NCBI GenBank assembly: GCA_013177995.1
Contig: JABLXN010000001.1
Coordinates: 62,001 to 126,000 of the forward strand
Length of the DNA: 64,000 nt
Reading direction: 5' to 3'
Origin: Brevinematales bacterium
Lineage (GTDB): Bacteria > Spirochaetota > Brevinematia > Brevinematales > Thermospiraceae
Position numbers and translations under genes: made by a program
In this document: positions 57,328-64,000 of the stretch, one piece after another
Position numbering within the stretch: position 1 is the first letter of the stretch
Layout: each line of letters starts with the position of its first letter
The notes under the pieces: model-generated
The model's database searches: none
What the model was told of the DNA's origin: nothing
The model's input: only the letters and a program-made list of their open reading frames with translations

Positions 57328-58080
57328 CTAACGAAAACTGAGCACCAGTTTTTCCACCAAAAGGTCCCAGCCATCCACCGCCAAAAACAACACAAGTTTC
57401 AAGGGAAAAGCCACCATGGTCGGCGGAAGCATCATCATACCCATGGACATCAACACACTGGCCACCACAATATCAATAATCGTAAACGGAATCAGAATCA
57501 ACATTCCCATATAGAACGAAATCGTGAGTTCATTCAGGATAAACGCAGGAATAAGCACATAATCCGGCACATCATCACGATTCCTTGGCCTTTCTACCTT
57601 GGCCATCTTGACAAAGCGGTAGATATAGCGTTCCGACGTTTGCTTGAACATAAACTCCCGAATGGGCTTCATCGCCTTTTTGTATCCCTCTGCCAAGGGA
57701 ATCTTCCCATCTAAATAGGGCCCAATCCCCTCTTGATACGACTTCTGGAAGATAGGATACATCACAAAAAGACTCATAAAAAGAGCAAGACTCACAATGA
57801 TCTGGTTTGGTGGAAGTCCCTGCTGAGAAAGCCCACGCCCCACAAAGGAAAGCACAATATACATCCGGATATAGCTGGTCAGCGTAATCAAAAGCGTCGG
57901 TGCAAGAGAGATAATCGTAATCAAAAAGAGCACCTGAAGCGAAAGAGCCACCTGACGGGGTGTCTTTGCCTCGGTAATATTCACATTCACCGACGGTATA
58001 GGAATATTCTGAGCCTGCTGAGCAAACCCAGCCACCGACAAAGCAAGCAAAAGCCCTGCATAGAGAGCCGGTTTTTTCAC
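57328..58080 (-). CDS. fliP: Flagellar export protein FliP
   Basis: 250 aa from the GTG at 58080, which is preceded by GGGAGGGAGGAA; an upstream in-frame extension is untranslated leader. Signal peptide KKPALYAGLLLALSVAGFAQ, then motifs LAPTLLITLTSYIRMYIVLSFV, PIREFMFKQT and SFYMGMLILIPFTIIDIVVASVLMSMGMMMLPPTMVAFPLKLVLFLAVDGW, all characteristic. First gene of the export operon. Confidence 0.97.
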   Translation of the reverse strand: MKKPALYAGLLLALSVAGFAQQAQNIPIPSVNVNITEAKTPRQVALSLQVLFLITIISLAPTLLITLTSYIRMYIVLSFVGRGLSQQGLPPNQIIVSLALFMSLFVMYPIFQKSYQEGIGPYLDGKIPLAEGYKKAMKPIREFMFKQTSERYIYRFVKMAKVERPRNRDDVPDYVLIPAFILNELTISFYMGMLILIPFTIIDIVVASVLMSMGMMMLPPTMVAFPLKLVLFLAVDGWDLLVEKLVLSFR

Positions 58081-58289: not shown

Positions 58290-58361
58290 TTGCCATTCTT
58301 CTCTCTCTGGACGAACCCAAACACCCGCACTCCCCTACACAAAACCTCTCTCTTACCCTCC

Positions 58362-61002
58362 AATCCCTTAAACAGGTCACTCTTTTTCTACATTACCTTC
58401 TGGAGAAAATTTCATACCAACGAAGCGTCGTAATCCCTTAAACAGGTCAATCTTTTTCTACTTGCACCGCAGGAGAAAAACATCGAGGCTCTGCGTCGGC
58501 TTGTCGTAATCCCTTAAACAGGTCACGGTTTTTCTACTTCTATGCAAAGATGGATTAATGTGACACTCAATCCCATGAGTCGTAATCCCTTAAACAGGTC
58601 ACGGTTTTTCTACAGAGAGAGTTGTTATCTCTTCTCGAGTATAATCGAAAAGTCGTAATCCCTTAAACAGGTCACGGTTTTTCTACACGCTGTCGAAATA
58701 AAATCGACTTATTCGGCTGGCTGGGAGTCGTAATCCCTTAAACAGGTCACGGTTTTTCTACGCTACGAGAGCGAAGAACAAAATCGAGCGAGAGATGATC
58801 CGAGTCGTAATCCCTTAAACAGGTCACGGTTTTTCTACGTATCTAAAAGCCGTGCGTAAATGTATCGCAAGACTTCAGTCGTAATCCCTTAAACAGGTCA
58901 CGGTTTTTCTACTCGACAAAGAAAAGAAAGAAGGAGGCGATTTATGAGAGTCGTAATCCCTTAAACAGGTCACGGTTTTTCTACTCTCGGGCTTTTCGGG
59001 TGCCAATATTTAATGTTCGCACCAGAGCGTCGTAATCCCTTAAACAGGTCACGGTTTTTCTACCCTCTGGCTTCAAAAAATATATACGATGTGGTGTGCT
59101 ACAGTCGTAATCCCTTAAACAGGTCACGGTTTTTCTACGAAAGCCCCCAGAAGGGATTATCAATGAACTACTTACCACAGTCGTAATCCCTTAAACAGGT
59201 CACGGTTTTTCTACTTTGAACTTATAGACAAAGACGGTGAAATTATCCCTGTGGTCGTAATCCCTTAAACAGGTCACGGTTTTTCTACGGGGTGTCTATA
59301 GATATCAGCCCATGGTATGCGGGTTGGTCGTAATCCCTTAAACAGGTCACGGTTTTTCTACAAACGCTTGAAGCATGGCTAACTGTTTTTCAGAGCATTG
59401 CCAGTCGTAATCCCTTAAACAGGTCACGGTTTTTCTACCATGGCTGACTGTTTTTCAGAGCATTGCTATGCTCTACAAGTCGTAATCCCTTAAACAGGTC
59501 ACGGTTTTTCTACAAGCGTGATGACCATGATTTAGTTATTAGAACATTGTTCTCTGGTCGTAATCCCTTAAACAGGTCACGGTTTTTCTACACAGAAGTA
59601 ACCCCGGAAATGATTGCCGAAACCGATGATGTCGTAATCCCTTAAACAGGTCACGGTTTTTCTACCCCAGAAGAATGGCTAAGAAGACAAAAACTCAGCT
59701 ACGATGGGTCGTAATCCCTTAAACAGGTCACGGTTTTTCTACCGGCATAACAGACCGACTGGGTTTATTAAAGACATCGAGTCGTAATCCCTTAAACAGG
59801 TCACGGTTTTTCTACGCCTGTGACACGGAGATATTTTTGAATGGAACACATCGTCGTAATCCCTTAAACAGGTCACGGTTTTTCTACTGTTCGTTTGCCA
59901 AAGAATGCGCCTTTTACAAAGGTCGTAATCCCTTAAACAGGTCACGGTTTTTCTACTGTTCGTTTGCCAAAGAATGCGCCTTTTACAAAGGTCGTAATCC
60001 CTTAAACAGGTCACGGTTTTTCTACCCTTTTTGGATACCTTAACCGTCTTTATCCCCTTGACAAAGTCGTAATCCCTTAAACAGGTCACGGTTTTTCTAC
60101 TTTCTGTTGAAAGGGGAGAGATTAAATTCTCCCTCCTCGTGTCGTAATCCCTTAAACAGGTCACGGTTTTTCTACTTTGAGAGTTTAGACCAAACCAAGT
60201 CGCTGAGGTGTGTCGTAATCCCTTAAACAGGTCACGGTTTTTCTACTTGAAAGGGGAGAGATTAAATTCTCCCTCCTCGTACAGGGTCGTAATCCCTTAA
60301 ACAGGTCACGGTTTTTCTACTGACAACGAGCCCGAAGCAACTTACTCATTTACGGATTACGGGTCGTAATCCCTTAAACAGGTCACGGTTTTTCTACACT
60401 GGTGGTGCGCTATAAAACATCAATAGATGTGAGTAAGGTCGTAATCCCTTAAACAGGTCACGGTTTTTCTACAGAAAGAAAAGGAGGAAAAATATGACTT
60501 TTCTATTGAAAGGTCGTAATCCCTTAAACAGGTCACGGTTTTTCTACCCCACCCACCTTGCAACAGGGGGTGAAGGAGGTCCTTAGAGTCGTAATCCCTT
60601 AAACAGGTCACGGTTTTTCTACCTTGTTGCCCCCATCGACAACTACCTACTGGTGCGCTATAAGTCGTAATCCCTTAAACAGGTCACGGTTTTTCTACAA
60701 GTGACCGTGGAAATAGACAAGGAGATGATTTGCTCCTTGTGTCGTAATCCCTTAAACAGGTCACGGTTTTTCTACAAACAAAAGAGCCGACGAATGTAAT
60801 TGAAGCCCAATTGGTCGTAATCCCTTAAACAGGTCACGGTTTTTCTACAGGAAGTGGACAAAATCAGCAACAATCGTGGACTTTGCAAGGGGTCGTAATC
60901 CCTTAAACAGGTCACGGTTTTTCTACGAGCCCGAAACCACTTACTCGTTTACGGATTACGATGTGCGGTCGTAATCCCTTAAACAGGTCACGGTTTTTCT
61001 AC
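58362..61002 (-). CRISPR. CRISPR array, 36 repeats and 35 spacers
   Basis: Repeat length 35 bp; plus-strand copies start GTCGTAATCCC and end GGTTTTTCTAC (full copy at 60968-61002). Spacers are 34-44 bp. Read on the minus strand the repeat ends GGGATTACGAC, giving an 8-nt crRNA tag ATTACGAC similar to the AUUGAAAC-type tags of type I/III systems. The two repeats at the low-coordinate end (58362-58391 and 58427-58461) have TC or AT for CG in the CACGG block, and the first also lacks its start, as expected for the old trailer end. The leader and cas genes are at the high-coordinate end. Spacers at 59888-59921 and 59957-59990 are identical. Several spacer pairs overlap the same target. Confidence 0.99.
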
Positions 61003-61251
61003 AGCACCCCCTTTTTGGGCCTTGAAAGACAAGCACTTAGATCCCCTTTTTTTGCAGACCCCCACCAAAAAGAGCCCTTCCAGAGCCAAAAAACATCACC
61101 TCAGTCCTATATCCTCTTGTCCTACAAAGACTTCAGACCTCCACGGAAAAATCGACACTTACACACTTCGGGGAGATCTGCGTCATGGGTTTTTGACAGA
61201 TCTCACAGAAATAGTATAGCACAATTTGAGCCTGCTGTCAAGAGAAAATCC
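61003..61251 (-). promoter_or_regulatory. CRISPR leader with consensus promoter
   Basis: Minus strand: TTGACA (61241-61236), exactly 17-bp spacer, TATACT (61218-61213), starting just 10 bases after the second cas2 stop. Just downstream of the start point is a 30-bp imperfect palindrome (61174-61203) with arms AGATCTG/CAGATCT and inner TCA/TGA, a plausible site for leader folding or binding of integration or regulatory proteins. About 205 nt of leader separate the promoter from the first repeat. Confidence 0.88.
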
Positions 61252-61542
61252 TCAAATAATCCTGTAGTCAAGTTCATCAGGATTCTGTACATGACCAGGA
61301 CCAAATTTTTGTTGTTTTTGCCAGTCCTTTTCACACAAAACAAAATACACCGCATAATCCTCTTCTTTCAATACCTCCCGAACCTCTTCCCGCAATTGTT
61401 TCAAAACTTCCATTGTGGTATACAATTCAAATACCGAATACTGCACCCTCTGACCATATCTTTCGGCTATTTTCGCCACCTTTCGCAGCCTCTTTGGGCT
61501 TCGGATATCATAAATCACCAGGTAATGCCTCTTCTCCCTCAT
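61252..61542 (-). CDS. cas2: CRISPR-associated endonuclease Cas2 (second copy)
   Basis: 96 aa. LVIYDIRSPKRLRKVAKIAERYGQRVQYSVFEL is the Cas2 ferredoxin-like fold with the metal-binding Asp in YDI. C-terminal AVYFVLCEKDWQKQQ. Cas2 dimers bridge two Cas1 dimers in spacer integration. Its ATG overlaps the stop of the first cas2 by four bases, and the leader promoter starts 10 bases after its own stop. Confidence 0.95.
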   Translation of the reverse strand: MREKRHYLVIYDIRSPKRLRKVAKIAERYGQRVQYSVFELYTTMEVLKQLREEVREVLKEEDYAVYFVLCEKDWQKQQKFGPGHVQNPDELDYRII

Positions 61543-61820
61543 AAGATTCGATAATCCTCCACCTTGAGCATATCTCCCGTGCCATCTTTTTGAATACTCT
61601 CATAACACGTCCGACACAAAGGATACACAAAAAAACTATCCAATCTCAATTTCATCACCCGAAAAACCTCTCTTTTCATCTCTTCTATCATTTCCCACTC
61701 CCCTTCGACCATAAAAAATGACTTCTGCACCCGAAGACCATAACGTTCTAAAAGCTTTGCCACCTTAGCAAGCCTTTTTGGAGAACGGATATCATAACAC
61801 ACCAGAAATATCACCCTCAC
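61539..61820 (-). CDS. cas2: CRISPR-associated endonuclease Cas2 (first copy)
   Basis: 93 aa, GTG start overlapping the cas1 stop (GTGA). FLVCYDIRSPKRLAKVAKLLERYGLRVQKSFFMVEGEWEMIEEMKREVFRVM; metal Asp in YDI is kept. C-terminal part FFVYPLCRTCYESIQ differs from its neighbour and has a CRTC pair often seen in Cas2. Both Cas2 proteins end in DYRI[IL], which suggests divergence after duplication. Confidence 0.95.
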   Translation of the reverse strand: MRVIFLVCYDIRSPKRLAKVAKLLERYGLRVQKSFFMVEGEWEMIEEMKREVFRVMKLRLDSFFVYPLCRTCYESIQKDGTGDMLKVEDYRIL

Positions 61821-62875
61821 CTCCCTACAAATGGTTTATAACTCTCCTCCTCACCCATAACCACTCTTTTGAGGTGTCTCACCTGTTCAAGCAAAATCTG
61901 TCTCCAGGAGACAACCTCCCCCAATGGTTCATAATACACGTCTTTATCCCGAAGAGTCTCCTCAAAATGCGTAATAACCTTCCGACACCCATCAGTAGTG
62001 AGAAGAACACCCTTTTTCGTCTCAAGAGAACCCCCTTCTTCAAGCGGAAAATCAATACTTTCTCGTCCAAACTCCTTCTCCTCAAAATCCTCTGGCTTCA
62101 AAACTCCCTTATTGAAAAGAGAAATCACCAGATTATCCACCAAAAGAGCACGAAACTCCTCCATACAATCAAGAGCAAGCGAAGGCCTATTGTACTCCAA
62201 AGCATGAAAAAAACCCACTCTGACATCAAACCCCTCCGTCATCAGAAAACCATCTAACCGGTAAAAAAGGAGCGTGTACAAAAAACTGAGAACTGCATTC
62301 ACATTATCCTCCGGTGGTTGACGCGTTCGCCCACAAAAGACCGCCCACTCTGGCAAAAAAGCCCTGGCCAAAACGGCAAAATACAATTTAGCCGCCAAAC
62401 CTTCATGCCCACGCACTTCTTCAACTGTACTGGATTCTCTGACCCGTCTTTTCACCTGTTCCACATCCCTCACATACCCCAACAATACCTCATCGAGCTT
62501 TCTATTGCGAATGATACGCCTCATCACCAGTATCTGATTCTCAATCTTGGCCTCAACAATTGCCTGAGAAAAACGAAGACAAAAACCAGAGTTTTTCAAA
62601 AGATCATACTGCTTCATCCGAAGAGCCACATGCTCCCTCTCCCCATAGGTCAACCTGGCATTGAACGCCCCATTTCTATTCAAAAAAACAACTGGTAGTT
62701 TCCAATGTACCAATGTAGCCAGCGCAGAACGAGTTATATCCACTCCCCCAAGAAAAACAATCTGATCCACACTTCCAGGTCTGATAATCTCCTTGAAAGA
62801 AGGCGTTTCAAGAACAAGATTCTTGTTTTCCTGACGGAGTTTTCCCCCTTCGGTCAAGACGTAAACATGAGACAT
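61817..62875 (-). CDS. cas1: CRISPR integrase Cas1
   Basis: 352 aa from 62875, with AGGAGG five bases upstream; an in-frame extension would start in the repeat element. N-terminal beta domain (SHVYVLTEGGKLRQENKNLVL, IVFLGGVDITRSALATL) and helical catalytic domain with Glu in VRGHEGLAAKLYF, His in VGFFHALEYNRPSLALD and acid in LDCMEEFR. It integrates new spacers at the leader end. No reverse transcriptase fusion. First gene of cas1-cas2-cas2; the element copy E lies directly before its ribosome site. Confidence 0.97.
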   Translation of the reverse strand: MSHVYVLTEGGKLRQENKNLVLETPSFKEIIRPGSVDQIVFLGGVDITRSALATLVHWKLPVVFLNRNGAFNARLTYGEREHVALRMKQYDLLKNSGFCLRFSQAIVEAKIENQILVMRRIIRNRKLDEVLLGYVRDVEQVKRRVRESSTVEEVRGHEGLAAKLYFAVLARAFLPEWAVFCGRTRQPPEDNVNAVLSFLYTLLFYRLDGFLMTEGFDVRVGFFHALEYNRPSLALDCMEEFRALLVDNLVISLFNKGVLKPEDFEEKEFGRESIDFPLEEGGSLETKKGVLLTTDGCRKVITHFEETLRDKDVYYEPLGEVVSWRQILLEQVRHLKRVVMGEEESYKPFVGR

Positions 62876-62888
62876 CCTCTCCTCCTGA

Positions 62889-63087
62889 GAGCCTTGCACG
62901 GGTGTTTTCTTCCCCTGTTTGGGTCAGGGGCTACGCCCCTGAAACCCCGCTTTTTCTGTTCACAAGGGCTTATTTGTCTTTTTTTATGAAAAAAATAGGC
63001 TTGTTTATTATGGAAAGAAATATTTTTATACTACTTTTTGCTTTTTATTACTTTCTTGAGACCTTTGCACATTCGTGCAAAGGTCTC
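62889..63087 (-). repeat. Dispersed 200-bp element, copy E, in the cas1 leader
   Basis: Inverted relative to the other four copies. Minus-strand order: perfect hairpin GAGACCTTTGCAC-GAAT-GTGCAAAGGTCTC (63087-63058), AT-rich body, GGGGC-GTA-GCCCC, and terminal CACCCGTGCAAGGCTC. It is flanked by the 11-bp direct repeat TCTCCTCCTGA (plus strand) at 62878-62888 and 63084-63094; four bases of the right copy coincide with the element end. The repeated bases include the cas1 Shine-Dalgarno sequence. Confidence 0.92.
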
Positions 63088-63187: not shown

Positions 63188-64000
63188 CTATAGCTTTCTC
63201 TCAAGATACTCTTCGATCTTGTCAAAGTAGCAGTAGTCCAATCCCGCCTGCTCACATTTCACCTTCTGATCTCGAATGGTCTGTGATACCCAGTGATATT
63301 CCTTCCCCTCTAAAAAAGAAAGCATCGGACCCACAATCACCGACTTCCCATAGGGACCGGATTTCTGATAGGCGCCATGCTCCTTACCTCGAGCCGTATC
63401 CGTCTCAAACTCCCCTGATTTCATCTCCACGAGAAGAAGTGTCCCATAGCTGGTAACAATCACAAGGTCATATTCAGCATCATGCTTATCAGAAACCGTA
63501 CACCCCTTCTTGCGTGTTTTCACACTATAGAAAAGCCCGCATACCCTCTCCCTCAGATCACTTTTCTCCTGCAGGATACGAACCACCTCAGAGACCACCA
63601 TTTTTTCAAAGGCTATTCCTATCCTGTCAAAATATATCACATTACTCGAACGTATCAAATATCGCCCGTCCTTTTTTTCCACGTTTTTAAAGTGCCCCCC
63701 ACAGGAGGTGAGCCAGGATTCAAGAACGCGATATTTCTCTTCTTCAATGCCCCTTTTATCAATGATAGGTCCATTGTACTCCCCATTCTCCTGAATATGC
63801 CGGGATTCTGCCTCCACATATTCGGCCATCTTTTTCTTGAGGACATTCCAGTACTCCTTATACATCCTGGGAATATCATAATAAAGTTCAGCAAGCCTCT
63901 GAAATTCTCTCCAGTCATTTTTTCTCTTTGCTGTGTCTATGTACTTTTTCATCTCTCTCATTTTGGTATCATACCGACCAAAACCTGTATCGCCTGCTAT
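63188..64000 (-). CDS. CARF-type PD-(D/E)XK nuclease (Can/Card1-like), 5' end cut off by the window
   Basis: The frame is open through base 64000, so the N-terminus is outside; about 270 C-terminal residues are visible. The last ~130 residues hold a restriction-nuclease-like core: GIAFEKMVVSEVVRIL, then DAEYDLVIVTSYGTLLLVEM with KSGEF, giving D-x13-E-x-K, the PD-(D/E)XK pattern. The same layout (CARF sensor, then DUF1887-type nuclease) is found in Can1/Can2/Card1 effectors that are activated by cyclic oligoadenylate made by type III CRISPR complexes. The preceding segment AGDTGFGRYDTK would join the CARF part. Upstream of cas1 on the same strand. Confidence 0.7.
   Translation of the reverse strand: MAGDTGFGRYDTKMREMKKYIDTAKRKNDWREFQRLAELYYDIPRMYKEYWNVLKKKMAEYVEAESRHIQENGEYNGPIIDKRGIEEEKYRVLESWLTSCGGHFKNVEKKDGRYLIRSSNVIYFDRIGIAFEKMVVSEVVRILQEKSDLRERVCGLFYSVKTRKKGCTVSDKHDAEYDLVIVTSYGTLLLVEMKSGEFETDTARGKEHGAYQKSGPYGKSVIVGPMLSFLEGKEYHWVSQTIRDQKVKCEQAGLDYCYFDKIEEYLERKL

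Follow-up and report, generated by a model that had tools for sequence, protein, structure and literature searches.

In this work we describe a CRISPR array (array 1) that very probably belongs to a type III-A (Csm) system, with spacers taken from the coding strand of invader genes, crRNAs antisense to invader mRNA, and a strand bias most likely brought about by selection. Type III systems target RNA and need crRNAs complementary to mRNA. An earlier note on the window (the whole analysed stretch of 64,000 nucleotides) had predicted from the apparent polarity of the spacers that the missing interference module is of type III, and had proposed to look for it past base 64000. A complete type III-A module, containing cas10 and csm2-csm5, lies directly beyond that base.

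Array 1, its leader and the type III-A module

The features of the locus that fall within the window, all on the minus strand, are as follows.

58357-61002, minus: CRISPR array 1, 36 repeats of 35 nt and 35 spacers
61003-61241, minus: leader with a TTGACA-N17-TATACT promoter motif at 61241-61213, homologous to the array 2 leader on contig C24
61252-61542, minus: cas2, first copy (PF09827, TIGR01573)
61539-61820, minus: cas2, second copy (PF09827, TIGR01573)
61817-62899, minus: cas1 (PF01867, TIGR00287), without a reverse transcriptase domain
63188-64000, minus: C-terminal part of a CARF/PD-(D/E)XK nuclease (Card1/Can2-like), cut at the window edge (whole gene L004:5188-6750)

Spacers of array 1 were named A1-A35 beginning at the left, where the first two repeats are degenerate and mark the leader-distal end. 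One repeat-spacer unit is duplicated, A21 (59888-59921) being identical to A22 (59957-59990), and 34 unique spacers were used in the analysis. The tandem cas2 genes overlap by 4 nt and both are clear Cas2 members, which is seemingly unusual in one adaptation module.

Sequence beyond the right-most repeat of array 1 is common to the flank of the second array end on contig C24, and both leaders carry the promoter motif on the minus strand (11/12 matches, with TG ahead of the second hexamer). The repeat folds at -7.7 kcal/mol in the transcribed orientation, compared to -2.1 kcal/mol in the other. Taken together, the motif found in both leaders and the fold of the repeat make transcription of array 1 from the minus strand, as claimed in the earlier note, well supported.

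Window base 64000 corresponds to C1:126000, and position p of L004 to window position 58000+p. Past the window edge the minus-strand order is card1-like, csx20, csm5, csm4, csm3, csm2, cas10, cas6, csx1 and then array 2, which has the same repeat as array 1. Cas10/Csm1 is of the III-A kind (TIGR02578, 622 bits at a cut-off of 170) and has both the HD and GGDD motifs; its closest relatives found are mostly in spirochaete genomes, an indirect sign that the organism is probably a spirochaete. The small subunit Csm2 was recognized by PF03750 (1.4e-18) and by TIGR01870 above cut-off, Csm3, Csm4 and Csm5 by TIGR02582, TIGR01903 and TIGR01899, each above cut-off, and Cas6 by PF10040 above cut-off and the PADLOC Cas6 model (1e-60), with TIGR01877 below its cut-off. 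Three genes are predicted to act in cyclic oligoadenylate signalling: the CARF-HEPN protein Csx1, which carries R-X4-H, the CARF PD-(D/E)XK nuclease, and Csx20 (TIGR01897, PF23400 and NF040559 above cut-off). For one Csx20 protein, cA4 ring nuclease activity has been demonstrated (PMC12409355).

At the leader-distal end of array 2 (L004:14916-14963) the last repeat stands 12 bases upstream of the csx1 start codon, on the same strand, and the pre-crRNA transcript of this array may read into the cas operon. The contig ends within array 2, and an array with this repeat is cut by the start of C24, on which its leader is also found; judging by these sequences, the two are probably parts of one array.

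The genome contains a further, separate type I locus with Cas3 and Cas1 on contig C7 (G000:C7:1-12000, L025), accompanied by a small array. It might be supposed that array 1 serves this locus and that its strand bias is incidental, the more so as spacers of types I-A and I-B have likewise been found to favour the coding strand (PMC8482600). We consider it highly improbable, for the C7 array has a different repeat, and the III-A genes sit between two arrays with the array 1 repeat and share its cas1-cas2 cluster. The type I array was considered as an internal control for the strand test described below, and it was dropped owing to too few recovered spacers. A search of genome contigs for the exact repeat gave no match. 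A third cas1 gene is present as a fragment at G000:C27:20379-20690 (positions 2-104 of a 283-position model). We also observed, on contigs C3, C4, C5, C9, C16, C25, C28, C54 and others, a sequence of ~130 bp in ~20 copies of 90-100% identity, often located at contig ends; it probably belongs to a transposon at which the assembly is broken.

Coding signal of the spacers

The strand of origin was assessed with a codon model trained on long ORFs of the same genome, which gives a strand log-odds value for each spacer, requires no invader sequence, and assigns the strand correctly for ~79% of random 40-mers taken from genes. With this model 28/34 unique spacers of array 1 were called plus (binomial p = 2e-4; strand-flip p < 1e-4), and after collapsing of the overlaps the bias was retained (23/29, p = 0.002). 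As the classifier is only ~79% accurate, 28/34 fits a set that is 86-100% sense, and even a fully sense-derived one: the maximum-likelihood sense fraction equals 1.0, with a support interval of 0.86-1.00 (0.83-1.00 for the collapsed set). The simple count of open frames per strand, also proposed earlier, did not separate the strands (63 plus and 58 minus), because at 40 nt the spacers lack the length that it requires.

In array 2 the same test called 9/14 spacers plus, which in so small an array gives p = 0.42, and the sense fraction of 0.78 has, with n=14 spacers, a support interval of 0.29-1.00. The log-odds of one array 2 spacer (L004:15343-15382) are strongly antisense, at -4.2; possibly this spacer is non-functional, or directed at an antisense transcript.

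The reading frames were further examined in individual spacers of array 1, of which the following are of importance here.

58913-58949, plus: A8, AAGGAGG and ATG, gene start
59362-59478, plus: A14/A15, overlapping, sense frame AWLTVFQSIA, two synonymous differences
60101-60285, plus: A24 (60101-60140) and A26 (60247-60285), overlapping, gene start together with A29 (probable)
60321-60362, plus: A27, sense frame DNEPEATYSFTDY, minus strand without open frame
60398-60437, plus: A28, sense frame LVVRYKTSIDVSK
60473-60512, plus: A29, AAGGAGG and ATG, gene start
60623-60663, plus: A31, sense frame LVAPIDNYLLVRY
60927-60967, plus: A35, sense frame EPETTYSFTDYDV

The overlapping sets reported in the earlier note are real, with correct coordinates and peptides; each set fits an open plus frame, and two sets have no open minus frame. 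In A14 (59362-59403) and A15 (59439-59478) the overlap of 30 nt contains 2 differences, both at third codon positions of the plus frame, and on the minus strand no frame is free of stops in both members. A27 and A35 share 35 nt with 4 differences, located at codon positions 1, 3, 3 and 2 of the plus frame EPE[A/T]TYSFTDY, and have stops in all three minus frames. Within the 18 nt shared by A28 and A31 there are 3 differences, which in the open plus frame L[V/L]VRY fall at positions 3, 3 and 1; of the minus frames one is likewise open, and in it they would fall at positions 1, 2 and 2. The A31 site was found again in array 2 (L005:1-30). A24 and A26 are identical across 34 nt, and a 13-nt overlap of A29 with A24 shows one third-position difference (CTA/CTG). 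A29 therefore probably extends the A24/A26 set, the joint reading being a ribosome site, ATG and then TFLLKGERLNSPSSYR. The ribosome sites followed by ATG on the plus strand of A8 and A29, pointed out earlier, were confirmed in the sequence. Over all overlap sets third positions account for 7/10 distinct differences, a count that serves as support only, as the frames were picked post hoc.

The array 1 spacers are A-rich on the plus strand (604 A and 474 T). Purine richness is common in coding strands, so an A-rich strand could mimic a coding one; together with frames chosen after looking at the overlaps, this might give the whole bias as an artefact of composition. Against it, dinucleotide-preserving shuffles left an excess of coding signal on the plus strand (Stouffer +4.9) and not on the minus (+0.25), which means that composition alone does not explain the bias, and neither A14/A15 nor A27/A35 offers a minus frame to be read instead. 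The chance that composition is responsible seems to us very small. We therefore keep to the coding-strand origin of the array 1 spacers, and since these are sense on the plus strand and the array is transcribed from the minus strand, their crRNAs would be complementary to mRNA. The same claim of the earlier note is in this way supported by the statistical sense bias and by the minus-strand promoters, with the target strand inferred.

Protospacer search and the probable cause of the bias

Comparison of all spacers with phages (blastn) yielded no protospacer, the best E value of 3 being taken as chance, and the array had no match among plasmids. Merged peptides had no match in phages (tblastn), and in 100 relatives they detected their own arrays and one weak match (E = 0.36); six degenerate peptide patterns were found in none of the viral contigs scanned. 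One match of A29, located in a congeneric genome, was not accepted as a protospacer, for it covers the ribosome site and ATG of a gene in which the following codons differ. Such an outcome is not surprising, as type III spacers are matched less often than those of other types (PMC8482600). The target strand is thus predicted from what the spacers themselves appear to encode, with no protospacer among the phages, plasmids, relatives and viral contigs searched.

According to the explanation we favour, the array 1 spacers would represent, on the plus strand, coding-strand pieces of invader genes. The minus-strand transcript started at the leader promoter would be cut by Cas6, each resulting crRNA being complementary to the mRNA of the invader. 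With this mRNA bound by the Csm complex, cyclic oligoadenylate made by Cas10 would switch on two effectors, the Csx1 RNase and the Card1/Can2-like nuclease, until Csx20, acting as a ring nuclease, ends the signal. The strand bias would arise through survival of infected cells whose spacers pair with mRNA, and not through acquisition that reads RNA.

A statistical strand bias alone cannot tell selection from biased acquisition, in which spacers would be captured from RNA, or oriented according to transcription, by the adaptation machinery itself and the bias would precede selection. There are RT-Cas1 systems that draw their spacers from RNA (Silas et al. 2016, as cited in PMC8482600), and array 1 is nearly all sense, a stronger bias than in many mapped type III arrays. 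However, a search of the genome with RVT_1 gave no reverse transcriptase match and Cas1 is plain, so the evidence leans to selection; array 2 has a likely antisense spacer, and in Thermus, which is without reverse transcriptase, unselected acquisition is unbiased (PMC7515739). Biased acquisition is in our view unlikely, and selection for working spacers, as in Thermus, would be the simplest cause. Where the earlier note had left selection and acquisition side by side as the source of sense-derived spacers, the sense bias itself (28/34) stands and the balance moves to the former.

Four overlap clusters in the ~48 spacers of the two arrays correspond, if sampling is uniform, to an effective target space of ~15 kb (the expected number of overlapping pairs is 6.1 at 10 kb and 3.1 at 20 kb), which points to one or a few small genomes, or to hot spots, as the source of spacers. 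The arrays come back several times to a few short coding sites, and it is conceivable, though we regard it as rather doubtful, that within one rapidly diverging family of phages this lineage selects or acquires spacers at defined coding hot spots (for instance early genes, or the starts of genes).

Comparison with known type III systems

That type III spacers favour the coding strand is known from earlier work, and our results add one more genome, probably of a spirochaete, as a clean example. The polarity of crRNAs could be read here from the spacer coding signal alone, with no known invader, and it correctly predicted a type III module that had not been seen; the same signal could serve as a cheap test of RNA targeting for arrays without mapped protospacers.

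A preference of type III spacers for the coding strand is general (Vink et al. 2021, PMC8482600), and array 1 is alike in that its spacers appear to be oriented for pairing of crRNA with mRNA. Vink et al. used mapped protospacers from many genomes, whereas here the orientation was deduced from the spacers' own coding signal. In Thermus thermophilus type III spacers acquired without selection derive from either strand, and it is through survival that the bias emerges (Artamonova et al. 2020, PMC7515739). Both systems are of type III, with a conventional Cas1, no reverse transcriptase and a strong bias (in Thermus, among protective spacers), but in Thermus selection was demonstrated experimentally, while in our case it is inferred. 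The module itself resembles known type III-A (Csm) systems with Csx1, a Card1/Can2-like nuclease and Csx20 in its cas10-csm2-csm3-csm4-csm5 set, cas6 and predicted cyclic oligoadenylate-dependent effectors, and it differs from them in two tandem cas2 genes and in the second array placed immediately upstream of csx1.
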